A stretch of 55,709 nt of DNA, from positions 1 to 55,709 of the IMG/VR virus record IMGVR_UViG_3300034418_012021. One strand, 5' to 3'. The notes under the pieces were generated by a model. The model had not been told where the DNA came from. It saw only the letters and a list, made by a program, of their open reading frames with translations, and did not search any database. The DNA is from a virus. Both the position numbers and the translations under genes were made by a program. The number at the start of each line of letters is the position of its first letter. The stretch's first letter is position 1. This document shows positions 24,101 through 55,070 of this stretch, one piece after another.

Positions 24101-27100
24101 TTACTACAAATTCTTATGAACAATTTAATTACTGCAACATTCCGGCATATGATGGTTTAAGAAACTATAATATTTTAGATTTAAGACCAAGAGTAACTCC
24201 TTATACAGTCACTGCTGGAGCAAGGTCTCCATTTGAATCACTATCAAATAATTTTATTAATGTTGACAACCAAAATACTCCAATTTTGGCATCCGATGAA
24301 GATATTATATTAGATTTCTCATATTATCTACCAAGAATTGATAAAATTATTTTATCAAAAGAGGGTCAATTTGAATTAATGATTGGAGATCCTGCAGAAA
24401 ATCCCCAGGCTCCATTAAATCTTTCAGAGTCTCTTGATATTGCTACAATAACTCTTCCTGCTTATTTCTGTACTAATGATGAGGTTAGAATTGATCTTGC
24501 TAAGCACAAGAGATATAGAATGGTCGACATTAAAAAATTGGAAGATAGAATAAAAAATCTTGAGTATTATACAACTCTTTCACTTTTAGAAAAAGAGACT
24601 GCTAGTTTTACTATAAAAGATTCCAATGGTCTCGATAGATTTAAATCTGGATTCTTTGTAGACAATTTTACAACTTTAATTTCACAAAAATCTTCATCTG
24701 TTGCAAAAAATTCAATTGACGTAGAAAATTCTCAATTGAGACCTTCTGTTTATACGACATCAATAGATTTAATTCTTGGACATACAAATTCCAATGGTTC
24801 AATTAATTTCAATGATGAAGATTTTGATTATAAGTCAAATCAATCTATTGTCGGAGAAAATGTTAGAAAATCTGTCGGTTCTGTTGGAAAGGGAATTTTA
24901 ACATTAGATTATTCCGAAACTGAAGAAATAGTTCAACCATATGCAACTAGAGTTGAAAATGTAACTCCATATTTGGTCACTTTCTATGGTGGAGTTGCTT
25001 CTTTAAATCCATCTTCCGATATTTGGTTGGATCCTATTGTTTTAGATCCAATTGATTTAGGTGTTCAACAAGGAGAAACTCAAATTGTTGAAGTTGAATT
25101 GGATGAAATTCCAGATCCAAACTCCGGATGGGCTCCAGTTATATTTGGTGCTTGGGAAACTTCATGGACAACAATATCTGCCCCAAGAGAAGTTTCTAGA
25201 GGTCCAAAATATGAAAAGAATGGAAAGTGGTATCAAGATGTTGTTTACGCTAGAGATAAAGAAGGTTTTAAAACTAGAATTGGTGATACCAACAGAATTA
25301 CATTCTCAGATACTTCAGTATCATATGGAGAAAATATAGTAAGTATTGATATTGCAACATACTGCAGATCTAGAAATATTGAGTTGGTTTCTAAGAAATT
25401 GAAACCTTATACTCAAATGTATACTTTCTTTGATGGTCAAAGAGTTGATGAATTTGTAGTTCCAAAACTTTTGGAAGTTGAAATGATATCTGGTATTTTC
25501 CAAATCGGAGAGACTGTTAGAACTCTCAAAGCACAAGATGCAACTGGAAATGCAAATATTAGATTCCGTCTTTGCCAACCAGATCATAGAGGTGGTAGAT
25601 ATGATTCTCCAACAGAAGTATATTCTTTTAATCCATATACAAGAACTGCAGATGTTCCAACAAGTTATTCTGAGTCATCAACATTTTTAAATATTGATAC
25701 ATTTTTATTGGCTGAAGAGGCAATTGGAGAATCTTTTGGATATGTTTCTTCTGGAATGCTTTTAATTGGTAACACTAGTAATGCTATTGCTAGAGTTCAA
25801 CCTGTAAGATTGGTCACGGATAATGTTGGAACAGTAATTGCATCTTTATATATTCCAGATCCATCTGTTCCAAAGAATCCAAAATTCACTACTGGTGCAA
25901 AGATTGTAAGACTTTCAAGTTCTCAGAGCATTTCCACTGTTCCAGGACTTCTAAACAGTTTGGCTGAAGCAGCATTCTTTTCAAAAGGTACTATTAAGAC
26001 AACTCAAGATTCCTTTGCAACCATTAGAGATACTATAAAAGAAGTTGGAACATTATCGCAAACAATTCCAATTTCAACAACAGATTTTTCACAACCTGTT
26101 TCGGTTGAGGTTCCTGCTCCCCCACCAAAACCACAACCACAACCATATCCAACACCAAAACCAGAACCATCACCATCACCAGAACCAAAACCTGGTCCAA
26201 AACCATCTCCTGGTCCAAAACCTGGTCCAAAACCATCCCCTGGTCCAAAACCATCTCCTGGTCCAAAACCATCCCCTGGTCCGAAACCATCTCCTGGTCC
26301 AAAACCAGCATCAAAGAAAATTGAACAATTTAAATTATATACAGTTCCAGGAACATATACATTTACTGTTCCAAAGGGCGTAACTTCTATTGAAGCTTCT
26401 GGAGTTGGTGCCGGTGGTGGCGGTGGATATGGTAAAGGAAACAAGCCTGGTGGCGGTGGTGGAGGTGGTGGAGTTTGCTCCAAGAAAATTTCGGTAAATC
26501 CTGGAGAAGTTTTAACGATTCAAGTTGGATCTGGAGGAAGAGGTGCATCTTCAGATAATAAGGCAACTAATGGAGAATCAAGTTTTGTCTTAGGTAAAAA
26601 TATAGTTGCTAGAGGTGGTGTTGGTGGATCTAGCACTTCTAAAGGTAAAGGTGGAAGTAATAGTGGTGGTGGTGGAAAAGGTGAAGATGGTAGATATGAT
26701 AGAGATGATGATGATAGAAAAGGTGGATATGGTGGAGGTGCAGGTCGTAGAGGTGGCGGAAACTGCGGTCACCCCAAAGATAAAGATTGTTCTTCGGCAA
26801 CTGGCGGAGTTGGTGGAAATGGTATAGAATTTGCAGGATCTGGTGGAACTAATGGTGAAGTTCCCGATTGTGGAGATAGAGATGGTGGAAGAGGTGGAAC
26901 TTTTGGTGGTGGCGGCGGCGGTGGCGTCAAAAACGGAGCAGGTGCAGATGGTTCTCCTGGCGCATTCTTATTGAAGTGGAAAGAATCTAAAGATACTGCA
27001 TCATCATCACTAATTCCACCTGTAGGATTAGATCCATTAGCACAATCATTTACTATTAGTGCCAAAGAGGGAAGATTCGTAACTGCAATTGATTTATTCT

Positions 27101-39133: not shown

Positions 39134-42100
39134 ATGTCAAAGTATCTTAGCAATCGTCAAAAGAATTTAAAAGTCGGCATAAGTTCTTATTCCGAGAACA
39201 AAACAACTGTTGAAGTTGTCGGTAAGGTTGGTATTGGGACTGCAGCAGCAACTGCTGACTTGGACATTAATGGCGATCTAAGATTGCGCGGAAGTTTATA
39301 TGATAGAGATAATCAAGTAGGTTCTCAGGGTCAAGTTTTAGTTTCTACTGGAGCAGGTGCAACTTGGACAAATATTGATGGAATAGAAACTATTGAAAAT
39401 ATTATAAATACTACATTAACTGGTGTTGAAATTGAGGAAGAAGGTGTAGGTATTGGTACTGGTTACCATACCATAAATTTTGTTGGAGCAGGAGTTACTG
39501 CAACTGGTGCTGGAACAACAGCAACTATCACCTTTACTCAGCAAGTAGGAATTCAAGGTACTCAAGGTGTTCAAGGCACTCAAGGTATCCAAGGTACTCA
39601 AGGTATCCAAGGTACTCAAGGAACACAAGGCACTCAGGGTGTTGATGGAATACAAGGTACTCAAGGCGTTCAAGGAACACAAGGTACTCAAGGTCTCCAA
39701 GGTACTCAGGGTGTTGATGGAATACAAGGTACTCAGGGCACTCAGGGGGTTCAGGGCACTCAAGGTGTTCAAGGAACACAGGGTACTCAGGGGGTTCAGG
39801 GCACTCAAGGTACTCAAGGTATTCAAGGGACTCAAGGTACTCAAGGGACTCAAGGTACTCAAGGTATTCAAGGGACTCAAGGAACACAGGGAACTCAAGG
39901 TACTCAAGGTACTCAAGGGACTCAAGGTATTCAAGGTATTCAAGGGACTCAAGGAACACAGGGAACTCAAGGTACTCAAGGTCTCCAAGGTACTCAGGGT
40001 CTTGATGGAATACAAGGTACTCAGGGTGTTCAAGGGACTCAAGGAACACAGGGAACTCAAGGTGTTCAAGGAACACAGGGAACTCAGGGGGTTCAGGGCA
40101 CTCAGGGAGTTCAGGGCACTCAAGGTACTCAGGGCATTCAAGGGACTCAAGGAACACAGGGAACTCAAGGTGTTCAAGGAACACAGGGTACTCAGGGGGT
40201 TCAGGGCACTCAAGGAACTCAAGGTACTCAAGGTGTTCAGGGAACGACTGGTCCTGTAGCTGGATCTGCGGAACAAGTTGTATATAAAGATGGTTCGAAT
40301 AATCCAGCAGGATCGGATAATTTAACCTTTAATGGCAATGATTTATTTGTCGGTAGAGATGTTACTATAGGTAGAGATTTATATGTTGATGGAAGTGTAA
40401 CAATTGGTGGTACTTCTGCAACATTATTCACAGAAACTCTCAGAATCAGTGATGCGGACATTATTCTTGGATATAGAACTGATTCAAATGGAAATGATGC
40501 ATCAACTGATACAACAGCAAATCATGGTGGTGTTGCACTTGCATCAACAGAAGGTACTCCATTAGTCAGTCTTAATGTAGCAGGAATTGAAACTCTTCCT
40601 CCCACATATAAGAAGATTATGTGGTTCAAAGAAGGAACCTTCTCTGGTCTTGGAACTGATGCCTGGTTGACTAACTATGCTCTTGGAATTGGTCTGACTG
40701 ATATGCTTTCCGGAACTGCTTTGGCAGTTGGTGGTGATATTGATATTCATGGTGCACTATATGATACAAACCACCTTAAGGGAGATTCTGGAGATATTCT
40801 AGTTTCGACTGGAACAGGTATATCTTGGACAGACCCATACGCAGCAGGAATACAGGGAACTCAAGGTGTTCAGGGTACTCAAGGTACTCAAGGTACTCAA
40901 GGTGTTCAGGGAACACAAGGAACTCAGGGTACACAAGGAACTCAGGGTACACAAGGTGCCCAAGGAACTCAAGGTACTCAAGGTGTTCAGGGAACACAAG
41001 GTATTCAAGGCACTCAAGGTATTCAAGGTACTCAGGGAACTCAAGGTGTTCAGGGAACTCAAGGTGTTCAGGGAACACAAGGTACTCAAGGTACTACAGG
41101 TGTCCAAGGCACTCAAGGTGTCCAAGGCACTCAAGGTGTCCAAGGAACTCAGGGTGTTCAAGGAACACAAGGTACTCAAGGCACTCAGGGCATTCAAGGA
41201 ACTCAAGGTGTCCAAGGAACTCAAGGTGTTCAGGGAACACAAGGTACTCAAGGCACTCAGGGCATTCAAGGAACTCAAGGTGTCCAAGGAACTCAAGGTG
41301 TTCAGGGAACACAAGGTACTCAGGGCATTCAAGGAACTCAAGGTACTCAAGGTACTCAAGGCACTCAGGGTACACAAGGCATCCAAGGCATCCAAGGCAC
41401 TCAAGGTACTCAAGGAACTCAAGGTACTCAGGGTACACAAGGTACTCAGGGCATTCAAGGTACTCAAGGTACTCAAGGTACTCAGGGTACACAAGGCATC
41501 CAAGGTATCCAAGGTATCCAAGGAACTCAAGGAACTCAGGGCATTCAAGGAACGCAAGGAACTCAAGGAACTCAAGGAACTCAAGGAACTCAAGGAACTC
41601 AGGGCATTCAAGGAACTCAAGGTACTCAAGGTACTCAAGGTACTCAAGGCATCCAAGGTATCCAAGGTACCCAAGGAACTCAAGGTGTCCAAGGAACTCA
41701 AGGTGTTCAGGGAACACAAGGTACTCAGGGCATTCAAGGAACTCAAGGTACTCAAGGTACTCAAGGTACTCAAGGCATCCAAGGTATCCAAGGTACTCAA
41801 GGTACTCAAGGTACTCAAGGCATCCAAGGTATCCAAGGTACCCAAGGAACTCAAGGTGTCCAAGGAACTCAAGGTACTCAAGGAACTCAAGGTACTCAGG
41901 GTACACAAGGCATCCAAGGCATCCAAGGCACTCAAGGTACTCAAGGAACTCAAGGTACTCAGGGTACACAAGGCATCCAAGGCATCCAAGGCACTCAAGG
42001 TGTTCAAGGAAGACAAGGAACTCAGGGTATTCAAGGTACTCAGGGAACTCAAGGTACTCAAGGCACTCAGGGTACAACGGGACCAGTAGCTGGATCAGCA

Positions 42101-45100
42101 AATCAAGTTGTTTACAAAAATAGTTCTAATATTGCAACAGGTTCTACAAATTTAACTTTTGATGGAACTTCTCTATATGCAAATCAGATTAATGGACCAG
42201 CAACCTTTGTAATTGATCCAACAACAATCGGTGACAACTCAGGAACTGTTGTTATAAAAGGTGACCTTCAAGTTGATGGACAAACAACAACAATAAATTC
42301 AACAGAACTTATTGTAGATGACTTAAATATCACTCTAGCTTCTGGTGCAGCAGATTCTTCCGCAGCAGATGGAGGTGGTATTACTCTTGATGGTGCAAAT
42401 GCAAGTTTAACGTATGCATCCACTGGAGATAAGTGGGTATTCAATAAAGCACCTTATTACAATGCTGCTAGGTTACTTACAACTTCCGATGAAGGAAGTG
42501 GAAATGGTTTAGATGCAGACACTGTAGATGGTCTTGAGGCATCATCATTCTTCAGAGCAGATACTTCAAACTCTGTGGATGTAAGATTGTCAATTGGAAA
42601 TGGTAGAGGTGTTAGATTCTTTGACAGTGATAACTATAAAATTTGGATGTCATCAAGTAATGATAGTACTTGGGGAGGAAGACTAGATTCGACTTCCGAT
42701 TTTAATATGTACTTCAGGATGACTGGAGGTACAAACAGAGGATTCGTATTCCAAAATGGAACTTCTGAGTTGTTCCAGATTGAATCGGACGGTCAAGTAA
42801 GAGTTGCTTCTAATAACATTTATGCAGGTAATGCTAATACGGTATGGCACGCTGGTAATGATGGAGCATCATCAGGTTTAGATGCAGACTTGCTTGATGG
42901 ACAAGAAGGTTCTTACTACATCAATACATCGGCAAATTCTCAAACTAAAACTGGAGATTTGACCTTAAGTGGTAATTTAACCCTTTCAGGATCATTTATT
43001 GATTCGACAGTAAGTTCTGGAACTACAGGATACGTTTTACAGTCAACTTTAAGTGGAACTGAGTGGGTTGATCCCACGACTGTTGCTGGACTTCAAGGCA
43101 TCCAAGGCACTCAAGGTATTCAAGGAACTCAGGGAACTCAAGGTACTCAGGGAACTCAAGGTACTCAGGGAACTCAAGGTACTACAGGTGTCCAAGGAAC
43201 ACAAGGTACTCAAGGTCTTCAAGGAACACAAGGTACTACAGGTGTCCAAGGAACTCAAGGTGTTCAGGGAACTCAAGGTACTCAAGGTCTTCAAGGAACT
43301 CAAGGAACTCAAGGCACTCAGGGCATTCAAGGAACTCAAGGTGTCCAAGGAACTCAAGGTGTTCAGGGAACACAAGGTACTCAAGGCACTCAGGGTACAC
43401 AAGGCATCCAAGGCATCCAAGGCATCCAAGGTACCCAAGGAACTCAAGGTGTCCAAGGAACTCAAGGTACTACAGGTGTCCAAGGTACTCAAGGTACTCA
43501 AGGCACTCAGGGCATTCAAGGAACACAAGGTACTACAGGTGTCCAAGGAACTCAAGGTACTCAGGGAACTCAGGGTGTTCAAGGAACACAAGGTACTACA
43601 GGTGTCCAAGGTACTCAAGGTACTCAAGGCACTCAGGGAACTCAGGGTGTTCAAGGAACACAAGGTACTACAGGTGTCCAAGGTACTCAAGGTACTCAAG
43701 GCACTCAGGGCATTCAAGGAACTCAAGGAACTCAGGGAACTCAAGGTGTTCAAGGCAGACAAGGTACTACTGGACCAGTAGCAGGTTCTGCAAATCAGGT
43801 TGTATATAAGGATGCATCAAATAACCCAGCAGGTTCAGCAAACCTTACTTTTGATGGTGGAACACTTACTGCAAGCAATTTAACAGTTACTGGTGCTTCT
43901 ACATTCCAAGGTAATGTAGATCTTGGTGATAATGATAGATTGAGATTTGGTGATAGTCAAGACTTACAGATTTATCATAATGGATCTAATAGTGTTATTC
44001 AGGATACCGGAACTGGTTCTTTAATACTGGGCGGTTCAAATTCTGTAGAAATTAGAAATGGTGCAGTAAATGAAACTGCAGCAAAATTCATTACAGATGG
44101 AGCAGTAGAACTCTACTACGACAACTCCAAGAAATTTGAAACCACTGCTGATGGTATTTTAGTTAATCCAAATGTAGGTCTCGGAACAACAGCAGGAAAT
44201 GCTGATGCAACTCAAGACCTTGCAGTATTCAAAACTACAAATAGCAATTCATCACTACTCAAAATTACCGAAACAAGAGATGTAGATGGAACTAATTGGA
44301 TTTCTGCTTATACCAGAATTCAGAAGACCACTGATGTAACCGACCAGGCATATATCCAGTTCAATGGTGATGGTAATACCTATGGAATGGAATTTGGGAC
44401 AATAGATGATGAAAAGTTTGCAGTATTCAGACGAGATGCAGAAGTAGAACTCTACTATGATAACTCTCTGAAATTTGAAACCACTGACTATGGAATCTAT
44501 GTAACGGGTGCTGGGAATACATCAACAATTGCAGGTGCAGCAAACCTTGTTCTTGATCCAACTGCTGTAGGTGATAATACAGGAACAGTTATCATCAAAG
44601 GCGATCTTCAAGTTGATGGAGATACCACAACAATCAACTCTACAACTTTAACAGTAGACGATAAGAATATTACTCTTGCTTCTGGAGCAGTTAATGCTGC
44701 ATCTGCAGATGGTGCAGGAATTACAGTCGATGGTTCCAATGCAACATTGACTTATGCATCCACTGGAGATAAGTGGGTATTCAATAAAGCACCTTATTAC
44801 AATGCTGCAAGATTACTGACAACTTCAGATGAAGGAAGTGGAAACGGACTTGATGCAGATACTGTAGATGGTCTTGAGGCATCATCATTCTTTAGAGCAG
44901 ATGCTGGAAATACTGTAGATGCAAGAATTGCCGCTGCTAATGGTAGAGGAATTAGATTCTATGATAATGATGGATATAAGATCTATATGTCATCATCGGC
45001 AGATGCAACTTGGGGAGGAAGATTAGATACAACTTCAGACTTTAATATGTACTTCAGAATGACTGGAGGTACAAACAGAGGATTCGTATTCCAAAATGGA

Positions 45101-48100
45101 ACTTCTGAGTTGTTCCAAATTGAATCAACAGGTCAATTAAGAGTTGCATCAAATAACATTTATGCAGGTAATGCTAATATCGTATGGCACGCAGGCAATG
45201 ATGGGGCAAGTAGTGGATTAGATGCAGACTTGCTTGATGGTCAGCAAGGTTCTTATTATATTAATACATCGGCAAATTCTCAAACTAAAACTGGAGATTT
45301 GACCTTAAGTGGCAATTTAACTCTATCTGGATCATTTACCGATTCTGCAGCAAGTTCTGGAACTTCAGGTTATGTTTTAAAATCAACCTCTACAGGAACT
45401 GAATGGGTTGATCCAACAACTGTTGCTGGACTTCAAGGCATCCAAGGCACTCAAGGTATTCAAGGAACTCAAGGAACTCAAGGAACACAAGGTACTCAAG
45501 GTCTTCAAGGAACACAAGGTACTACAGGTGTCCAAGGAACTCAAGGAACACAAGGTACTCAAGGTCTTCAAGGAACACAAGGTACTACAGGTGTCCAAGG
45601 AACTCAAGGAACTCAGGGAACTCAAGGCATTCAAGGCACTCAGGGTACACAGGGCATCCAAGGAACACAGGGTACTCAGGGAACACAAGGTGTTCAAGGA
45701 ACACAAGGTACTACAGGTGTCCAAGGTACTCAAGGTACTCAAGGCACTCAGGGAATTCAAGGTACTCAGGGTATTCAAGGTACTCAGGGCATTCAAGGAA
45801 CACAAGGAACACAAGGAACTACAGGTACTACAGGTGTCCAAGGAACTCAAGGAACACAAGGTACTCAAGGTCTTCAAGGAACACAAGGTACTACAGGTGT
45901 CCAAGGAACTCAAGGAACACAAGGTACTCAAGGTCTTCAAGGAACACAAGGTACTACAGGTGTCCAAGGAACTCAAGGAACTCAGGGAACTCAAGGTCTT
46001 CAAGGAATACAAGGTACTACAGGTGTCCAAGGAACACAAGGTACTCAAGGTACTCAAGGTAGACAAGGTACTACAGGTACTACAGGTACTACAGGTGTCC
46101 AAGGTACTCAGGGAACTCAGGGAACTCAAGGAACTCAAGGTATTCAAGGAAGACAAGGAACTCAAGGTGTCCAAGGAACTCAAGGTACTCAGGGAACTCA
46201 GGGAACTCAAGGTACTACAGGACCAGTAGCTGGATCAGCAAATCAAGTTGTTTACAAAAATAGTTCCAATATTGCAACAGGTTCTGCAAATCTGACCTTT
46301 GATGGAACTTCTTTATATGCAAATCAGATTAATGGACCAGCAACCTTTGTAATTGATCCAACAACAATCGGTGACAACTCAGGAACTGTTGTAGTTAAAG
46401 GTAATTTGCAGATTGATGGTACAACAACAACTGTAAATTCAACCACAGTAACTATTGATGATAAGAATATTACTCTTGCTTCTGGTGCTGCCAATGCTGC
46501 AGCTTCTGATGGTGGTGGTATTACGCTTGATGGTTCTAGTGCTTCTATTACATATGCATCCACTGGAGATAAGTGGGTATTCAATAAAGCACCTTATTAC
46601 AATGCTGCTAGGTTACTTACAACTTCCGATGAAGGTTCTGGAAATGGTATCGATGCGGACACTGTAGATGGTCTTCAGGCATCATCATTCTTCAGAGCAG
46701 ATGCTGGAAACAGTGTAGACGCAAGAATTGCTGCCGCAGACGGACGGGGAATTAGATTCTATGATAATGATGCATATAAGGTCTATATGTCTGCTTCAGG
46801 AAATACAACCTGGGGTGGTAGATTAGATACAACTTCAGACTTTAATATGTACTTCAGAATGACTGGAGGTACAAACAGAGGATTCGTATTCCAAAATGGA
46901 ACTTCGGAACTGTTCCAGATTGAATCTACTGGACAACTAAGAGTTGCATCAAATAACATTTATGCAGGTAATGCTAATATCGTATGGCACGCTGGTAATG
47001 ATGGATCGGGAAGCGGATTGGATGCGGATTTACTAGATGGGCAGCAAGGTTCTTATTATATTAATACATCAGGAACTGCGCAGACAAAGACTGGTAATTT
47101 GACAATTAGTGGAGAAATTATTGCAAATACAGGAAACTTTATTTCGACGGTAGGTATTGGAACAATCATAGATATTATTCCTTATGATACTTTAAATTCT
47201 GGAACACTTTCCTTTGAAGCTTCTGCGGGACAGTTGTTCTCCATTACAAATAATCTCACATCAGGATCTATTTTCTCAGTTAATGATGTTTCTGGACTAC
47301 CAAGCATTGATGTTAATGCTGATGGAACAGTACAATTAGCACCTTTTGGATCTAATGAATATGTTGGAGTTGGAGTAACAAATCCAACACAAAAACTTCA
47401 TGTAAATGGAAACCTAAGAGTTACTGGAGCATATTATGATTCCAATAATGATGCGGGAACATCGGGATACGTTCTCAAGTCAACTGCTACAGGAACTGAC
47501 TGGGTAGATCCAACAACGGTTGCTGGATTGCAGGGTATTCAAGGTACTCAGGGTATTCAAGGAACTCAGGGAACTCAGGGCACTCAGGGAACTCAAGGTA
47601 GACAAGGTACTACAGGTATTCAGGGCACTCAGGGCACTCAGGGAACTCAAGGTAGACAAGGTACTACAGGTACTACAGGTACTCAGGGAACTCAAGGCAC
47701 TCAAGGTATTCAAGGCACTCAGGGAACTCAAGGTAGACAAGGTACTACAGGTACTACAGGTACTCAGGGAACTCAAGGCACTCAAGGTATTCAAGGCACT
47801 CAGGGAACTCAAGGTAGACAAGGTACTACAGGTACTACAGGTACTCAGGGAACTCAAGGTATTCAAGGTAGACAAGGTACTACAGGTACTACAGGTACTC
47901 AGGGAACTCAGGGAACTCAGGGCACTCAAGGTAGACAAGGTACTACGGGTACTACAGGTACTCAGGGCACTCAGGGCACTCAGGGAACTCAAGGTAGACA
48001 AGGTACTACAGGACCAGTAGCAGGTTCAGCAAATCAAGTTGTTTATAAAAATTCATCAAATGTTCCAACAGGTTCTTCCAATTTTACATTTGATGGTGAT

Positions 48101-51100
48101 ACTTTAACGGTAAATGGTGACGTTTCAATTGCATCTACGGTTAGCATTGGTACAAGCATTGATATTATTCCAGATAATAGTACAGGAACACTTTCATTTG
48201 AAGGTTCTGCTGGACAATTATTCTCCATTACAAATAATCTGACTACAGGTTCTATCTTTGCTGTTGGTGATGTTACGGGCATTCCAAGCATTGATGTTGA
48301 TGCTGATGGAACAATTCAATTAGCACCTTACGGTTCAACTGAGTATGTTGGTGTTGGTGAAACAAATCCAACACAAAAACTTCATGTAAATGGAAACCTA
48401 AGAGTTACTGGAGCATATTATGATTCTAATAATGATGCAGGAACATCTGGATATGTTCTTAAATCAACTGCTACAGGAACTGACTGGGTAGATCCAACAA
48501 CGGTTGCTGGATTGCAGGGCACTCAGGGCACTCAGGGAACTCAAGGTAGACAAGGTACTACAGGTACTACAGGTACTACAGGTACTCAGGGAACTCAAGG
48601 TATTCAAGGTAGACAAGGTACTACAGGTACTACAGGTACTCAGGGAACTCAAGGTATTCAAGGTAGACAAGGTACTACAGGTACTACAGGTACTCAGGGA
48701 ACTCAAGGTATCCAAGGTCCTGGAGGATTGACAACAACAAATGCAGATACTTTAGATAATTTAGATTCTACAGCATTCTTTAGAGCAAATACTGGAAATA
48801 CTGTAGATGCTAGATTTGCTTCAGCAGATGGAAGAGGTGTTAGATTCTATGATAATGATGCATATAAGGTCTATATGTCTACTTCAGGAAATACAACCTG
48901 GGGAGGAAGACTAGATTCGACTTCCGATTTTAATATGTACTTCAGGATGACTGGAGGTACAAACAGAGGATTCGTATTCCAAAATGGAACTTCGGAACTG
49001 TTCCAAATTGAATCAACAGGTCAATTAAGAGTTGCATCAAATAATATCTACGCAGGCAATGCTAATACGGTATGGCACGCTGGTAATGATGGATCAGGTT
49101 CAGGACTTGATGCAGACTTACTTGATGGTTATTCAGCAAGTACTACAAGAAATGCCGCAAATACAATTCCAGTTAGAGACGGCAATGGTTATCTTCAGTT
49201 AGGGTGGATAAACACTACTAGCGGCGCAACAACTTCAACTATAAACAAAATTTATGCTTCAAATGATGATTATATAAGGTATGTTACACCTGCCACTCTT
49301 ATCAGTCAGTTGGGTATTTGGACCTCAGGTAACGATGGATCAGGTTCTGGTTTAGATGCTGATTTACTTGATGGCGAAAACTTGGTGGATAATGCTGCAA
49401 CTGCAAATACTGTTGCGGGAAGAAATGCATCCGGTGACATCTATGCAAGATTAATTCGCCAGACATTCGCGGATCAAAGTACAATTAACGGTGGAATAGT
49501 ATTCCGTACTAATAGTAGCAGTGATAACTATCTAAGAGTTTGTAATAGTACTTCTGCTATTCGCGCCTACTTGAATGTTCCAACAAGAACTGGTGGTGAT
49601 GCTAGTGGAACTTGGGGAATTAATATTACTGGTAGTGCTGGAACTTTAGACGGTATTGATAGTTCCCAGTTCTTGAGGTCTGATGCTGATGATACCACTA
49701 CAGGCAATTTAGTAATAAGTGATAAGTATCTGCGAGTAGGTAGACCTGTAAGCGATACTGCTTCTATGGTCAGAACAAATACTGCTCTTGAAGTATCTTC
49801 ATTAGGAGTTGATCAAACAGCGTCTCAAACTAATGTAATGCGTTTACTTAGAGATGGTACAAGTGGTGTAGTTTATGCTGGCGCTGCAGACTTTGATCTT
49901 TACAGACATACTGCAAGTGGTGTTGCACCAAATGTTGGATTGGAAATAAAATTATCTACTTCTGATACATCAACTTATTATAGTGCATTAAAACTTCAAA
50001 GTAATGGAGTTATCCAAACTGGAGGAAACACAATATGGCACGCAGGTAATGATGGTGCTGGATCTGGTTTAGATGCTGACTTACTTGATGGATTACAACC
50101 TTCAGTATCAGCATCAAATAACACAATAGTTCAAAGACATAGTTCTGGATACATTTACGCAAATTATTTCAACACCACTCCAAATGATGTTACATCTGGA
50201 GTAACAAAGGTTTGTGTTGAAACTGGAAATGATGGTTTTATTAGACATGGTACTGCTGCTGCTATTAGAACATTTATTGGAGCAGGTTCTGGTGGTGGTC
50301 TTGATGCTGACTTACTTGATGGTCAACAAGGTTCCTATTATCTTAACTACAATAACTTATCTAACAAACCAACAATTCCAACTAATAACAACCAACTGAC
50401 TAATGGTGCTGGTTATATAACCTCTAGTGGAAGTATTACTGGTAGTGCTGGAACTTTAGACGGTATTGATAGTTCCCAGTTCTTAAGATCTGATGCTAAT
50501 GATACTTTCACTGGAAACCTGACTACTGGTGCAGATAATCACATTACTTTTGGTCCAAATAGTAGTTGGTCATCATATTTACGTGTTGGTGGTAACGGAA
50601 GAACTGCAACTGGTACAGAGATGGCAAGCGTTGTCACTACTGACGGAAACTTACATTTAGACGCTGCTGCTTCTACTAACGCTACATATTTAAATTATTA
50701 CGCAGGTACTCAAGGTGTTGCATTCGGTAGTGGTAATTCGGCTACTGTTGCTTGGATGGGTCCAGATGGGGATCTTTGGAAAGGTAGTTCGGACAATAGT
50801 GGTAGTAAGTATTGGCACGCAGGCAATGATGGAGCAGGTTCTGGTCTTGATGCAGACTTACTCGATGGACTGAGTAGTGGAAGCTTCTTTAGAGCAGATG
50901 CTGGAAACAGTGTAGACGCAAGAATTGCTGCTGCTGACGGTAGAGGCATCAGATTCTGGGATAGTGATAACTATAAAATTTGGATGTCCGCATCAGGAAA
51001 TACGACTTGGGGTGGTAGATTAGATACCACTTCCGATTATAATATGTACTTCAGGATGACTGGAGGTACAAACAGAGGATTCGTATTCCAAAATGGAACT

Positions 51101-52291
51101 TCCGAGTTGTTCCAAATTGAATCGACAGGTCAATTAAGAGTTGCTTCAAATAATATCTACGCAGGTAATGCTAATATTGTATGGCACGCAGGTAATGATG
51201 GATCAGGTTCTGGTCTCGATGCTGACTTACTCGATGGATATAGCACTGCAACTGGAGGAAATGCAAATACTATTGCACTGAGAGATGGCAGTGGTCACTT
51301 GTATATGAACTATGGTTTCGCGGCATACTTTAATATGAGCCATGGAACTGGTACTCGTACTGCCGATACTATTTTCTATTCCTCAACAGACAACTATATC
51401 AGAAAAAATAATGCAACTGGAATGAGATCATCTCTCAATGTTCCAACAAGAACTGGTGGTGATGCTAGTGGAACTTGGGGAATTAATATTACAGGTAATG
51501 CTGCTACTGCTACTAGTGCTACTAGTGCTACTAGTTCCGATTACTTAACAGGTAATGCTTTTGCGACTACAGGATCGCCATCAAATGCTCTGGAGTATCA
51601 GCAATCTGCTAGTATTTCAGATACAAGATTAGCACCCACTACAGATTGGTATAACACAATCAGAATGGGTCATGGAAATCCTTATAATTATTATAGCAAT
51701 ACTATTGCTATGCAAATGACCGGTACTGGTGCTGGTCAAATAAGGACTCAATTAATTTCAAATAATAGTCCACAAGGATGGAGAACTGTCTGGGATTCGT
51801 CGAACGATGGATCAGGTTCTGGATTAGATGCAGATTTACTTGATGGTCTCAATGCTGCAACAACAGGTGCGAATACAATTGTAAGAACTGATGGTTCTGG
51901 AAATATTGCAGCATCTGGTAATGTCACAGCATACTCTTCTGATAGAAGACTGAAAGAAAACTTCAACCATATTGAATCTCCAGTTGAGAAAGTACAAAAA
52001 CTTAATGGTTATACATTTGATTGGAATGAGAAATCAAAAGAACTTGGATTTACTCCAAAGTATGAAAAGAATGATATTGGTTTAATCGCACAAGAAGTTG
52101 AAGATATTCTTCCACAGGCAGTTGCACCAGCACCATTTGATACAAAATCAAATGGAGAATCTAAATCTGGAGAGAACTACTTAACAATTCAATATGAGAG
52201 ACTTGTTCCATTGCTGGTTGAAGCAATTAAAGAACAACAAAATCAAATAAATAAATTGACTCAAGAAATTAATGAGTTGAAATCAAATTAA
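39134..52291 (+). CDS. Giant collagen-like tail fibre with S74 chaperone, 4385 aa
   Basis: A fibre of 4385 aa. Residues 1-138 are a beta-rich head (VGKVGIGTAAATADLDINGD). Six collagen-like Gly-X-Gln blocks follow at 139-373, 572-983, 1319-1547, 2099-2363, 2798-2960 and 3126-3197, each in unbroken triplet phase and almost without Pro. Between blocks are shaft modules, including five copies of a 100-residue unit (GRG.RF...TWGGRLD...WHAGNDG) and many GLDADLLDG knobs. Residues 4269-4385 are an intramolecular chaperone of the S74 type: SSDRRLKENF gives catalytic Ser4269 and Lys4274, followed by IGLIAQEVEDILPQAV and a terminal coiled coil. In this family the trimeric chaperone folds the fibre and then cuts itself off before the Ser. 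It is a likely host-binding fibre. Confidence 0.9.
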   Translation: MSKYLSNRQKNLKVGISSYSENKTTVEVVGKVGIGTAAATADLDINGDLRLRGSLYDRDNQVGSQGQVLVSTGAGATWTNIDGIETIENIINTTLTGVEIEEEGVGIGTGYHTINFVGAGVTATGAGTTATITFTQQVGIQGTQGVQGTQGIQGTQGIQGTQGTQGTQGVDGIQGTQGVQGTQGTQGLQGTQGVDGIQGTQGTQGVQGTQGVQGTQGTQGVQGTQGTQGIQGTQGTQGTQGTQGIQGTQGTQGTQGTQGTQGTQGIQGIQGTQGTQGTQGTQGLQGTQGLDGIQGTQGVQGTQGTQGTQGVQGTQGTQGVQGTQGVQGTQGTQGIQGTQGTQGTQGVQGTQGTQGVQGTQGTQGTQGVQGTTGPVAGSAEQVVYKDGSNNPAGSDNLTFNGNDLFVGRDVTIGRDLYVDGSVTIGGTSATLFTETLRISDADIILGYRTDSNGNDASTDTTANHGGVALASTEGTPLVSLNVAGIETLPPTYKKIMWFKEGTFSGLGTDAWLTNYALGIGLTDMLSGTALAVGGDIDIHGALYDTNHLKGDSGDILVSTGTGISWTDPYAAGIQGTQGVQGTQGTQGTQGVQGTQGTQGTQGTQGTQGAQGTQGTQGVQGTQGIQGTQGIQGTQGTQGVQGTQGVQGTQGTQGTTGVQGTQGVQGTQGVQGTQGVQGTQGTQGTQGIQGTQGVQGTQGVQGTQGTQGTQGIQGTQGVQGTQGVQGTQGTQGIQGTQGTQGTQGTQGTQGIQGIQGTQGTQGTQGTQGTQGTQGIQGTQGTQGTQGTQGIQGIQGIQGTQGTQGIQGTQGTQGTQGTQGTQGTQGIQGTQGTQGTQGTQGIQGIQGTQGTQGVQGTQGVQGTQGTQGIQGTQGTQGTQGTQGIQGIQGTQGTQGTQGIQGIQGTQGTQGVQGTQGTQGTQGTQGTQGIQGIQGTQGTQGTQGTQGTQGIQGIQGTQGVQGRQGTQGIQGTQGTQGTQGTQGTTGPVAGSANQVVYKNSSNIATGSTNLTFDGTSLYANQINGPATFVIDPTTIGDNSGTVVIKGDLQVDGQTTTINSTELIVDDLNITLASGAADSSAADGGGITLDGANASLTYASTGDKWVFNKAPYYNAARLLTTSDEGSGNGLDADTVDGLEASSFFRADTSNSVDVRLSIGNGRGVRFFDSDNYKIWMSSSNDSTWGGRLDSTSDFNMYFRMTGGTNRGFVFQNGTSELFQIESDGQVRVASNNIYAGNANTVWHAGNDGASSGLDADLLDGQEGSYYINTSANSQTKTGDLTLSGNLTLSGSFIDSTVSSGTTGYVLQSTLSGTEWVDPTTVAGLQGIQGTQGIQGTQGTQGTQGTQGTQGTQGTTGVQGTQGTQGLQGTQGTTGVQGTQGVQGTQGTQGLQGTQGTQGTQGIQGTQGVQGTQGVQGTQGTQGTQGTQGIQGIQGIQGTQGTQGVQGTQGTTGVQGTQGTQGTQGIQGTQGTTGVQGTQGTQGTQGVQGTQGTTGVQGTQGTQGTQGTQGVQGTQGTTGVQGTQGTQGTQGIQGTQGTQGTQGVQGRQGTTGPVAGSANQVVYKDASNNPAGSANLTFDGGTLTASNLTVTGASTFQGNVDLGDNDRLRFGDSQDLQIYHNGSNSVIQDTGTGSLILGGSNSVEIRNGAVNETAAKFITDGAVELYYDNSKKFETTADGILVNPNVGLGTTAGNADATQDLAVFKTTNSNSSLLKITETRDVDGTNWISAYTRIQKTTDVTDQAYIQFNGDGNTYGMEFGTIDDEKFAVFRRDAEVELYYDNSLKFETTDYGIYVTGAGNTSTIAGAANLVLDPTAVGDNTGTVIIKGDLQVDGDTTTINSTTLTVDDKNITLASGAVNAASADGAGITVDGSNATLTYASTGDKWVFNKAPYYNAARLLTTSDEGSGNGLDADTVDGLEASSFFRADAGNTVDARIAAANGRGIRFYDNDGYKIYMSSSADATWGGRLDTTSDFNMYFRMTGGTNRGFVFQNGTSELFQIESTGQLRVASNNIYAGNANIVWHAGNDGASSGLDADLLDGQQGSYYINTSANSQTKTGDLTLSGNLTLSGSFTDSAASSGTSGYVLKSTSTGTEWVDPTTVAGLQGIQGTQGIQGTQGTQGTQGTQGLQGTQGTTGVQGTQGTQGTQGLQGTQGTTGVQGTQGTQGTQGIQGTQGTQGIQGTQGTQGTQGVQGTQGTTGVQGTQGTQGTQGIQGTQGIQGTQGIQGTQGTQGTTGTTGVQGTQGTQGTQGLQGTQGTTGVQGTQGTQGTQGLQGTQGTTGVQGTQGTQGTQGLQGIQGTTGVQGTQGTQGTQGRQGTTGTTGTTGVQGTQGTQGTQGTQGIQGRQGTQGVQGTQGTQGTQGTQGTTGPVAGSANQVVYKNSSNIATGSANLTFDGTSLYANQINGPATFVIDPTTIGDNSGTVVVKGNLQIDGTTTTVNSTTVTIDDKNITLASGAANAAASDGGGITLDGSSASITYASTGDKWVFNKAPYYNAARLLTTSDEGSGNGIDADTVDGLQASSFFRADAGNSVDARIAAADGRGIRFYDNDAYKVYMSASGNTTWGGRLDTTSDFNMYFRMTGGTNRGFVFQNGTSELFQIESTGQLRVASNNIYAGNANIVWHAGNDGSGSGLDADLLDGQQGSYYINTSGTAQTKTGNLTISGEIIANTGNFISTVGIGTIIDIIPYDTLNSGTLSFEASAGQLFSITNNLTSGSIFSVNDVSGLPSIDVNADGTVQLAPFGSNEYVGVGVTNPTQKLHVNGNLRVTGAYYDSNNDAGTSGYVLKSTATGTDWVDPTTVAGLQGIQGTQGIQGTQGTQGTQGTQGRQGTTGIQGTQGTQGTQGRQGTTGTTGTQGTQGTQGIQGTQGTQGRQGTTGTTGTQGTQGTQGIQGTQGTQGRQGTTGTTGTQGTQGIQGRQGTTGTTGTQGTQGTQGTQGRQGTTGTTGTQGTQGTQGTQGRQGTTGPVAGSANQVVYKNSSNVPTGSSNFTFDGDTLTVNGDVSIASTVSIGTSIDIIPDNSTGTLSFEGSAGQLFSITNNLTTGSIFAVGDVTGIPSIDVDADGTIQLAPYGSTEYVGVGETNPTQKLHVNGNLRVTGAYYDSNNDAGTSGYVLKSTATGTDWVDPTTVAGLQGTQGTQGTQGRQGTTGTTGTTGTQGTQGIQGRQGTTGTTGTQGTQGIQGRQGTTGTTGTQGTQGIQGPGGLTTTNADTLDNLDSTAFFRANTGNTVDARFASADGRGVRFYDNDAYKVYMSTSGNTTWGGRLDSTSDFNMYFRMTGGTNRGFVFQNGTSELFQIESTGQLRVASNNIYAGNANTVWHAGNDGSGSGLDADLLDGYSASTTRNAANTIPVRDGNGYLQLGWINTTSGATTSTINKIYASNDDYIRYVTPATLISQLGIWTSGNDGSGSGLDADLLDGENLVDNAATANTVAGRNASGDIYARLIRQTFADQSTINGGIVFRTNSSSDNYLRVCNSTSAIRAYLNVPTRTGGDASGTWGINITGSAGTLDGIDSSQFLRSDADDTTTGNLVISDKYLRVGRPVSDTASMVRTNTALEVSSLGVDQTASQTNVMRLLRDGTSGVVYAGAADFDLYRHTASGVAPNVGLEIKLSTSDTSTYYSALKLQSNGVIQTGGNTIWHAGNDGAGSGLDADLLDGLQPSVSASNNTIVQRHSSGYIYANYFNTTPNDVTSGVTKVCVETGNDGFIRHGTAAAIRTFIGAGSGGGLDADLLDGQQGSYYLNYNNLSNKPTIPTNNNQLTNGAGYITSSGSITGSAGTLDGIDSSQFLRSDANDTFTGNLTTGADNHITFGPNSSWSSYLRVGGNGRTATGTEMASVVTTDGNLHLDAAASTNATYLNYYAGTQGVAFGSGNSATVAWMGPDGDLWKGSSDNSGSKYWHAGNDGAGSGLDADLLDGLSSGSFFRADAGNSVDARIAAADGRGIRFWDSDNYKIWMSASGNTTWGGRLDTTSDYNMYFRMTGGTNRGFVFQNGTSELFQIESTGQLRVASNNIYAGNANIVWHAGNDGSGSGLDADLLDGYSTATGGNANTIALRDGSGHLYMNYGFAAYFNMSHGTGTRTADTIFYSSTDNYIRKNNATGMRSSLNVPTRTGGDASGTWGINITGNAATATSATSATSSDYLTGNAFATTGSPSNALEYQQSASISDTRLAPTTDWYNTIRMGHGNPYNYYSNTIAMQMTGTGAGQIRTQLISNNSPQGWRTVWDSSNDGSGSGLDADLLDGLNAATTGANTIVRTDGSGNIAASGNVTAYSSDRRLKENFNHIESPVEKVQKLNGYTFDWNEKSKELGFTPKYEKNDIGLIAQEVEDILPQAVAPAPFDTKSNGESKSGENYLTIQYERLVPLLVEAIKEQQNQINKLTQEINELKSN
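39548..40252 (+). repeat. Collagen-like block 1 (78 triplets)
   Basis: It encodes uninterrupted G-X-Q triplets (GTQ, GVQ, GIQ, GLQ, some GVD/GLD) with no Arg and no internal GTT, ending GTTGPVAGSA. The DNA is a degenerate 9-base repeat around GGTACTCAA, open in every frame. Confidence 0.9.
40847..42082 (+). repeat. Collagen-like block 2 (137 triplets)
   Basis: The longest block, mainly GTQ, GIQ and GVQ with one GAQ, one GRQ and one GTT inside. It again ends GTTGPVAGSA. Confidence 0.9.
42206..42901 (+). repeat. Shaft module long form, copy 1 (696 nt)
   Basis: 232 residues, from FVIDPTTIGDNSG through KWVFNKAPYYNAARLL to GLDADLLDG. It shares exact length and phase with copies at 44546 and 46346. 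Its last 300 nt is the 100-residue unit found five times. Confidence 0.9.
43088..43774 (+). repeat. Collagen-like block 3 (76 triplets)
   Basis: It starts GLQGIQGTQ, has six internal GTTGVQ units and one GRQ, and ends GTTGPVAGSA. Confidence 0.9.
44546..45241 (+). repeat. Shaft module long form, copy 2 (696 nt)
   Basis: The same length as copy 1, shifted by exactly 2340 nt. It contains the 56-nt (44753-44808) and 47-nt (45059-45105) stretches identical to the other copies. Confidence 0.9.
45428..46222 (+). repeat. Collagen-like block 4 (88 triplets)
   Basis: It has the same start as block 3, with frequent GTTGVQ units, short GTTGTTGTT runs and two GRQ triplets. Confidence 0.9.
46346..47041 (+). 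repeat. Shaft module long form, copy 3 (696 nt)
   Basis: The same length, 1800 nt after copy 2. It contains identical stretches at 46553-46608 and 46859-46905. Confidence 0.9.
47525..48013 (+). repeat. Collagen-like block 5 (54 triplets)
   Basis: A higher-order repeat of GRQGTTGTTGTQ plus a few GTQ triplets, with seven GRQ. It is clearly different in texture from blocks 1 and 2. Confidence 0.9.
48509..48724 (+). repeat. Collagen-like block 6 (about 24 triplets)
   Basis: The shortest block, with three GRQGTTGTTG units, ending GIQGPGG instead of the GTTGPVAG terminator used by the other five. Confidence 0.85.
48830..49129 (+). repeat. Shaft 100-residue unit, copy 4
   Basis: Only the last 300 nt of the long module is present here. 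The 47-nt identical stretch is at 48947-48993. Confidence 0.9.
50939..51238 (+). repeat. Shaft 100-residue unit, copy 5
   Basis: Exactly 300 nt, without the upstream part. The 47-nt identical stretch is at 51056-51102. Confidence 0.9.
51938..52291 (+). other. S74 intramolecular chaperone / self-cleavage domain
   Basis: It encodes residues 4269-4385. The Ser-Asp-x-x-Leu-Lys signature (SDRRLK) places the cut just before Ser4269, with Lys4274 as partner. QYERLVPLLVEAIKEQQNQI and the final coiled coil are the usual trimerisation end. Confidence 0.9.
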
Positions 52292-52826: not shown

Positions 52827-55070
52827 ATGACACTACAAGGTTCTGGAGCAATATCTTTATCACAAATAGCAGGCGAGTTCGGTGGAAAGAATCCACTAGA
52901 GCTTGGTGAGTATCGTGGTCAAGATAATGCTCCAACGACTGGTGCCATAAGTTTTTCCAATTTTTATGGGACCGATGGTATTCCTACAAGTGGTCTCCAA
53001 TATCATTATGATGGTCAGATTTCTGAACATAATGATCCTTCAGCAGGAAATGTTCAAGATTTAGGTTCAAGTAACTATACTGGAACCTTGACCAATGGTG
53101 CTGCGTATAACACTGGAAACTTTGGTAAAGTAGTATTTGATGGCGTTGATGACTATGTAAATCTGTCTGGATATAATGGAGTTACTGGCACAACAGCAAG
53201 AACTTCCATTGTATTTTTTAAACTTGATGCATCACCACCATCTGCAGTTCAAAGACTTTTAACTTGGGGAGACCCTACCACTAATGGTCAAAAGTGGGCA
53301 ATGGAAATTACAACAGCAAGACAGATTAGATTAGCTATTGGAGGTGCTTCTAGATTAGCAACAAAACAATTGACCACAACTAATTGGAATATGATTGCTG
53401 CCACCTGTTCTGGTGGTTCTGGTGCGAGTGCACCATCTCCTATTTTTGACTTTCTTATAGCAGGAGACACTGTAGTTAGTGGAACTGGAGTTCCTGGTGG
53501 TACAACAGTTACTGCATTTAATAGTAGTGCAGGTACTATTACATTATCCAATAATCTTACGACTACATTATCCAATACTACTTTAACGTTCACCAACACT
53601 TATTTGCAAGCAAGTGGTGGTGGAGGTGGACAAAATCGTGGATCTGGTGGAAATGGTGGTACTGCTAGTGGTGCGGCAAGAGCAGCTGCATCACAAGGAT
53701 CTGGCGGCCAAGGCGGCACCGGTTCTAATAGGCAGAGTCCATTTTATTCTGGAGGCGGCGGCGGTGCTGGTGGATATACCGGCAATGGTGGTAGAGGTTG
53801 TGACCAAGACGGTAGCCCATCAGGAGCAGCAGGAACTGGTGGTGGTGGCGGCGGTGGCGGCCGAAGCGATGGTGGTGGTGGTGTAGAAGTATCCAATGGT
53901 CAAGGTACTTCGGGAAGTGGTGGAGGAACAACCAATCCTGGTGGTGGAGGTTCTGGTGGTTCTGCAGGATCTGCTGGATCCGGTACTGGAGCTTCTGGTG
54001 GTAATTATGGTGGAGGAGGCGGTGGTGCCTATGGATCCGATAACAATGGTGGATCTGGTAGACCTGGTAGGGCAAGATTTGTTTGGGGTAGCTATTCATA
54101 TCCCTCAAATGCTTCTTCATCTGCGTCAACACAACAAACATTTGCCGGAAGTGGAACATTCACAGTTCCTAGTGGAGTAACATCAGTTTCTGCTGCAATT
54201 GTTGGTGGTGGCGGCGGTGGTGGTGGTTCGGAAGAAAGTGATGAAACCGGCGGCGGCGGTGGCGGCGGTGCTCTTTCATATGGAAGTTGGACTGTTTCTC
54301 CTGGCCAGCAATTCACAGTAACTATTGGTAGTGGCGGCAGCGGTGCCGGTGCTGGTAATGATGGAGGTTCTGGAGGAACTTCAAGTATTACCGGAACTGA
54401 TACAGAAGCAGTATCAGGAACATCAGGAACTAATACACTTACTGCTGCATCCGGTGCTGCTAATGATATTCCCAACATAACCTTATACCATAACGCACAA
54501 AAACTTACAAATTATAGTGATGTTGCTGGAGCTATTGACACATCAACGGGAACAAATGTTGCTATCGGTCGTGCCAATGCTGGAGCAGCAGGAAATGTTG
54601 ATGGAGAGGTTGCCAAAGCATTAATTTATAATAGAGAATTAACTCACGCAGAAGTTGCTCAGATATACAATGCAAAATGCGTGGCACTTGGACTATCTCA
54701 AGAAACAGCATCGACTGAAACTACATCATCTCCTCCAACATATTCCATTACACAGACAGCAACAACAATTTATGAAACATCTGGTGCAGGATCTCCACAA
54801 TCTACAACATTTACAATAACTACAACTAATGTTGCAAATGGAACAACTCTATATTGGACTTGTGGTGGTGGTAATGTTTCATCTGCAGACTTTACTCAAA
54901 ATACAACTTCCGGATCTTTCACTATTAACAACAATACTGGTTCTGTAACTTTAACTGCCAGAAATGATGGAGTTGCCGACGATAAGGAAACATTCACATT
55001 AGAAGTTAGAACTGGAAGTACTTCGGGAACAGTTGTAGCAACCAGTTCAACAATTACAATTAATGAATAA
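52827..55070 (+). CDS. Mosaic adhesin: split LamG domain with Gly-rich insertion, 747 aa
   Basis: Residues 1-50 (GAISLSQIAGEFGGKNPLEL then GAISFSNFYGTD) are a common phage fibre head. A LamG/concanavalin-like fold begins near 58 (LQYHYDG...KVVFDGVDDYVNLSG) and runs to NWNMIAATCSG near 193. It resumes only near 546 with NITLYHNAQKL and VAKALIYNRELTHAEVAQIY. The gap holds a GDTVVSGTGVPGGTTV module, polyglycine loops ending RARFVWGSY, then a beta start (GSGTFTVPSGVTSV). After 635 comes a Calx-beta-like domain (TTIYETSG...DDKETFTLEV). Split fold and glycine loops suggest a receptor-binding tip. Confidence 0.8.
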   Translation: MTLQGSGAISLSQIAGEFGGKNPLELGEYRGQDNAPTTGAISFSNFYGTDGIPTSGLQYHYDGQISEHNDPSAGNVQDLGSSNYTGTLTNGAAYNTGNFGKVVFDGVDDYVNLSGYNGVTGTTARTSIVFFKLDASPPSAVQRLLTWGDPTTNGQKWAMEITTARQIRLAIGGASRLATKQLTTTNWNMIAATCSGGSGASAPSPIFDFLIAGDTVVSGTGVPGGTTVTAFNSSAGTITLSNNLTTTLSNTTLTFTNTYLQASGGGGGQNRGSGGNGGTASGAARAAASQGSGGQGGTGSNRQSPFYSGGGGGAGGYTGNGGRGCDQDGSPSGAAGTGGGGGGGGRSDGGGGVEVSNGQGTSGSGGGTTNPGGGGSGGSAGSAGSGTGASGGNYGGGGGGAYGSDNNGGSGRPGRARFVWGSYSYPSNASSSASTQQTFAGSGTFTVPSGVTSVSAAIVGGGGGGGGSEESDETGGGGGGGALSYGSWTVSPGQQFTVTIGSGGSGAGAGNDGGSGGTSSITGTDTEAVSGTSGTNTLTAASGAANDIPNITLYHNAQKLTNYSDVAGAIDTSTGTNVAIGRANAGAAGNVDGEVAKALIYNRELTHAEVAQIYNAKCVALGLSQETASTETTSSPPTYSITQTATTIYETSGAGSPQSTTFTITTTNVANGTTLYWTCGGGNVSSADFTQNTTSGSFTINNNTGSVTLTARNDGVADDKETFTLEVRTGSTSGTVVATSSTITINE
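53413..54463 (+). other. Insertion within the LamG domain (permuted Gly-rich order)
   Basis: About 350 residues interrupt the strand-loop-strand between AATCSG and IPNITLYHN. Within it the glycine-loop half (closing with RARFVWGS) precedes the beta-start half (TFTVPSG...VTIGSGGSG), the reverse of the order in the Gly-rich domain at 26317-26986. Confidence 0.65.

Follow-up and report, generated by a model that had tools for sequence, protein, structure and literature searches.

ORF 52827-55070 (+ strand) of the window, by which we mean the whole stretch of DNA analysed, a linear IMG/VR virus record of 55,709 bases, encodes a 747-residue tail protein in which a circularly permuted glycine-rich (Gly-rich) domain appears to be nested within a laminin G-like (LamG) domain. 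We estimate the probability that this is the actual architecture at about 80%, because the LamG domain is split, its insert has its parts in swapped order, the arrangement is conserved, the fold of the insert could be predicted and tandem relatives exist. As seen from the ORF list and the translation, the whole architecture lies within one ORF; it recurs in the relatives L007, L009, L010, L011 and L023.

LamG and Gly_rich_2 (PF21722) are both known domains. In searches of the open-access literature we came upon neither a report of the two in nested permuted form nor one of a phage Gly-rich adhesin that is both nested and circularly permuted. It is rare to catch a permuted domain that is also inserted in another one while the tandem arrays that probably preceded it can still be seen. 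The finding suggests that host-binding tips can also be internal, and it illustrates how annotation misses such domains: Pfam gives zero LamG and half a Gly-rich domain.

The window contains T4-like structural genes, and its gp6 wedge protein is nearest (about 55%) to those of Synechococcus and Prochlorococcus myophages. From this context the ORF is taken to encode a modular tail protein, presumably located in the virion, of a T4-like, cyanophage-like virus. Upstream lie a giant collagen-like QGTQG protein (39134-52291) and then two small genes, downstream follows a 212-residue gene, and this gene order is retained in most relatives. The giant protein, of 4385 residues, is tail-fibre-like with long QGTQG collagen-like arrays, and its C-terminal end (SDRRLKENF..) is, by eye, typical of an S74 intramolecular chaperone.

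The tail protein begins with a segment (residues 1-50, SGAISLSQIAGEFGG..SGAISFSNFYG, 52827-52976, + strand) that is kept in all relatives and is resembled by the start of an otherwise different Gly-rich protein, L127; it is possibly the part that attaches to the virion. The protein ends with a Calx-beta-like domain (residues 637-747, 54735-55067, + strand), as indicated by alignment and by a sub-threshold Calx-beta match (E = 0.01).

A LamG domain split by the insert

The initial annotation had described a LamG fold split before IPNITLYHN by an insert at 53413-54463, and both the split and the coordinates agree with what we find. The LamG domain is interrupted after WNMIAATCSGGS and resumes at IPNITLYHN, the insert comprising residues 196-547 (53412-54467, about 350 residues). 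The native protein of 747 residues is without any LamG match in Pfam, and so is the first half alone; the second half alone matches PF13385 (Laminin_G_3) at positions 93-151. When residues 51-198 and 548-625 were joined, a search that had already been proposed with the initial annotation, the complete profile was matched (1-151 of 151, E = 2.6e-14, 54.1 bits versus a gathering score of 27.6). PF13385 is therefore complete in this protein and yet not on a contiguous chain, the insertion of about 350 residues lying within it.

The first part of the domain, residues 51-197 (52977-53417, + strand), and the second part, residues 548-622 (54468-54692, + strand), were delimited by these matches, by alignment and by a profile that we built from 79 uninterrupted phage LamG domains; this intact-LamG profile matches residues 55-197 (profile positions 3-140) and 514-616 (up to profile position 205). 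Intact LamG rows or fragments that were added to the alignment were misplaced by MAFFT. Between the strands WNMIAAT and NITLYHN, where the insert interrupts the domain, other phages have a LamG loop of only a few residues. Once joined, the domain is as complete as the Laminin_G_3 domains of cyanophage-like structural proteins (S-PM2 p176, S-SKS1, loci L046-L112), which in the LamG loci inspected are uninterrupted, whereas here the domain is split.

A Gly-rich domain in swapped order and its connector

The initial annotation had taken the insert to be a Gly-rich domain, and for most of its length it is; the first 60 or so residues and roughly the last 16-25 look instead like a small beta domain, discussed below. 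Of the Gly-rich domain, the C-terminal part comes first (residues 263-425, 53613-54101, + strand); it aligns to the end of unpermuted domains. A linker that joins the former C and N termini follows (residues 422-437, SYSYPSNASSSASTQQ, 54090-54137, + strand), and then the N-terminal part (residues 438-531, TFAGSGTFTVPSGVTS..SSITG, 54138-54419, + strand), whose alignment to unpermuted domains covers their residues 1-93. In the native protein PF21722 is matched only at profile positions 3-138 of 226 (residues 440-586; 46.1 bits versus a gathering score of 24.3); when the halves are re-ordered, N then C, coverage extends to 3-225 of 226. The window also encodes a DUF4815 protein (26341-26979, + strand), which matches 1-225 of 226 without any re-ordering. 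The two proteins of the window thus have their Gly-rich parts in opposite order, which had been claimed from the sequence before these searches.

Pairwise comparisons were made with the unpermuted domains L147, L132, L133 and P0002 and judged against composition shuffles. The N half aligns to the start of all these references with z of about 9-17. The C half aligns to the end of L147 and L132 (z 7-12) and weakly to L133 and P0002 (2 of the 4 references, z about 1-8), the latter because glycine richness inflates the background. Clean alignments were also obtained with fragments that occur naturally in other viral proteins, for N fragments to residues 439-523 and for C fragments to residues 309-430. 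Each half is thus homologous to a different stretch of a single reference domain, the two stretches being complementary and their order swapped, as expected of a circular permutation. The cut falls in a single turn, SSI..^..ATGG, as a comparison of unpermuted L248 (SSISRGGTPLLTAGGG) with L023 (SSISRSST..(insert)..NNYLLATGG) indicates. All sequence motifs of Gly_rich_2 are present (the FTVPxGVTS strand, the GGGGGG loops, the SSI hairpin, GGGGxGGYxGNGG and the last strand RIIWG); the difference is that the C part precedes the N part, the old ends are joined and the whole is inserted within another domain.

The small beta domain, which links LamG and the Gly-rich domain, was absent from the initial annotation. 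Its later strands (residues 203-262, IFDF..VSGTGVP..TTVTAFNSS..TLTFTN, 53433-53612, + strand), running from VSGTGVPGGTTVTAFNSSAGTITLS to TLTFTN, recur in unrelated viral proteins, and there they are preceded by a further strand; intact counterparts are found in L179, L180, L181 and L183. In the family of the window protein a strand similar to that preceding one, TSGTNTLTAASGAAND, lies where the insert ends (residues 532-547, 54420-54467, + strand), where a strand is also predicted, and it is probably the first strand of the domain. Judged from sequence similarity, the connector is thus probably itself split. The intact-LamG profile also aligns the TSGTNTLTAASGAAND stretch, weakly, to the preceding LamG strand, and these residues could accordingly belong to LamG as a duplicated target strand outside the small beta domain. 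We regard this as unlikely in view of the resemblance of TSGTNTLTAASGAAND to the strand before the intact small beta domain of L181 (SGSNAVTALSND). None of the viral sequences retrieved was found to combine an unpermuted Gly-rich domain with the small beta domain, and therefore the immediate ancestor is missing.

Structure prediction, another check proposed at the outset, gave a usable model of the insert and a poor one of the larger assembly. AF2 modelled the insert alone (34-row alignment) with a pLDDT of 73.7 and a pTM of 0.78, and LamG plus insert together (ten rows) with only 46.7 and 0.40. Within the insert the pLDDT was 82-96 for the N part, mostly 80-89 for the small beta domain, 75-88 for the last Gly-rich strand and 47-58 for the distal glycine loops. 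Long strands were predicted at residues 248-262 and 519-531, where the hairpin linking the small beta and Gly-rich domains is expected. Foldseek matched the model to Gly-rich phage proteins, the best being A0A6J5NTR4 (1.7 Å over 82 columns), and found no match in the PDB at E ≤ 0.001. A weak fold match (E = 0.41) was to BFVD entry A0A6J5T0D4_1, named a concanavalin A-like lectin, which may be another combination of LamG and Gly-rich domain.

That the insert consists of two separate complete Gly-rich domains was rejected: both halves are incomplete, they tile a single domain between them, and they are part of the model with pTM 0.78. A related explanation is that the two pieces are truncated remnants of neighbouring domains which do not fold with each other in the chain, being intertwined in a trimer or independently degenerate. 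The same C-to-N slice does occur inside genuine tandem arrays, there split between different domains, and the fibres of phage Pam3 are trimers (PMC9608196). Yet the two halves jointly cover one domain without large overlap, neither has decayed in any lineage, and it was as a monomer that the insert was modelled by AF2, which makes such remnants improbable.

Relatives and the origin of the permutation

The order first LamG part, small beta domain, C part, N part, second LamG part is identical in six distinct sequence types, namely the window with four near-identical contigs, L007/L008, L009, L010, L011/L012 and L023/L024. The identity of the first LamG part ranges in the other types from 88 down to 53%. 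The same junctions are present in twelve other viral contigs, in frame each time, and the IMG/VR relatives come from several other metagenomes. Repetitive runs of Gly-rich codons, in a virus record taken from a metagenome collection, made it necessary to consider an assembly or amplification artefact joining different molecules. With the same in-frame junctions in twelve other contigs, which have diverged independently, down to about 53% LamG identity, we hold such an artefact to be virtually impossible; the same fusion in five further divergent types excludes chimeric reads and misassembly. At least six distinct virus lineages share the nested permuted arrangement, which has thus genuinely evolved. 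Gly-rich ORFs from two other scans were surveyed with simple motifs, not exhaustively: about 20 other viral ORFs all had the order N then C, and C then N was seen in the family of the window protein only.

Isolated phages gave no match to the whole protein, nor to the low-complexity C and N parts or the small beta domain, a result for which the low-complexity filter is probably partly responsible; LamG matches, to S-SKS1 and S-PM2, were no more than marginal. A scan of bacterial and archaeal genomes with the junction yielded 13 matches, most of which lay in the query's N part. An uninserted close relative was sought by a scan with the second LamG half, which returned only family members.

Two complete Gly-rich domains in tandem are found in L189 (3128-4852), L190 (3128-4852) and L196 (3110-4870). 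The junction between C of their first and N of their second copy (VVRIIWGAGRAYPNTATTDVADGSSGQATYTSAGTF) resembles the fusion in L023 (AARIIWGAGRSYPATSVADSGTNQSVFTTSGTF), the motifs being IIWGAGRAYP..TSAGTF in L189, L190 and L196 and IIWGAGRSYP..TTSGTF in L023; the linker of the window protein is likewise comparable. The tandem proteins thus have the same kind of C-to-N junction as the insert; unlike the insert, their domains are complete, in normal order and not nested in LamG. They are probably related to the precursor from which the insert arose. Because viral tandem proteins show a comparable C-to-N junction, the insert can be understood as a slice shifted by one period (the C part of the first copy and the N part of the second) that would have been captured from a tandem array, and permutation by duplication is the most likely origin. 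The two alternatives offered at first, a natural circular permutation or recombination between domains in tandem, then become one and the same explanation. Excision of a DNA circle with one Gly-rich unit, followed by its Campbell-like integration into the LamG gene, would give the same final order and fit the clean placement of the insert in a loop. It requires a circle, however, whereas tandem proteins occur in nature, and we consider it distinctly improbable. Direct repeats flanking the insert edges, looked for by eye as a footprint, were not found in extended or obvious form.

Putative tip function and possible exchange of the insert

In the reading that we favour, the chain runs from the first LamG part through the later strands of the small beta domain, the Gly-rich C part, the linker of the old termini, the Gly-rich N part and the probable first small beta strand to the second LamG part. 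The central LamG jelly roll then carries, in its loop WNMIAAT/NITLYHN, the small beta domain, which itself carries the permuted Gly_rich_2 domain.

Among the closest known systems is the tail fibre gp24 of the myocyanophage Pam3 (PDB 7YPX, 7YFW), to which the N half has a weak sequence match (E = 0.018). In gp24 the strands of a TNF-like sandwich extend into distal glycine loops, the variable ends of which have been proposed to bind the host (PMC9608196). By analogy with this fibre, the opened turn and the old chain ends would lie together at the base of the sandwich, so that the permutation would leave the glycine loops pointing outward and give a two-strand anchor to LamG. Unlike the insert, gp24 has not been reported to be permuted, is terminal on an alpha-helical shaft and is without LamG and small beta domain. 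The gp38 adhesin of Salmonella phage S16 (PDB 6F45) has been described as similar to gp24 (PMC9608196) and shares with the insert a glycine-rich motif lattice at the fibre tip; it differs in being a separate tip protein that is not nested, and a sequence match between gp38 and the insert was not found. Membership in the tip adhesins of the gp38 and gp24 type was not indicated by a solved fold, no PDB entry matching at E ≤ 0.001. A function of the insert as an adhesin that binds a host receptor appears rather probable to us, and LamG may serve it as the platform that the initial annotation had supposed.

Such a receptor-binding tip could vary in its distal loops and be exchanged between viruses via recombination in the conserved flanks. 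Between the window and L009 the insert has diverged more than its flanks, and this holds for synonymous sites too: the dS is about 0.6-0.76 in the insert and 0.06-0.24 in the flanks. At fourfold sites the same pair shows no differences in the first 80 codons and about 40-60% in the insert (residues 241-440). In the pair L010/L011 it is the second LamG part that differs more than the insert. The sequence divergence suggests that recombination may exchange the insert relative to its flanks, as would befit a swappable tip; this comparison, of few pairs and short segments, is a lead rather than proof.

We would propose, tentatively and at somewhat less than even odds, that phages turn tandem Gly-rich adhesin arrays into permuted, loop-inserted tips on a lectin-like domain via a split connector and then swap the tip as a cassette. 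If true, this would be a general route by which receptor-binding modules are moved into internal loops, and it offers a testable model for the diversification of tips by phages.

The C-terminal part of the protein has been exchanged among the relatives, being Calx-beta-like in the window, L007, L009 and L011 and made up of other domains in L010 and L023. L009 (7873-9117) carries an additional array of some six or seven repeats (VDRIDYSNDTATASPKGPLS..FGYFGGG). In L019 (11581-15498) and L023 (6423-11270) other genes follow, some of which look by eye like genes for glycosyltransferases or sugar-processing enzymes, which suggests that in these two contigs a variable region adjoins the tip gene.
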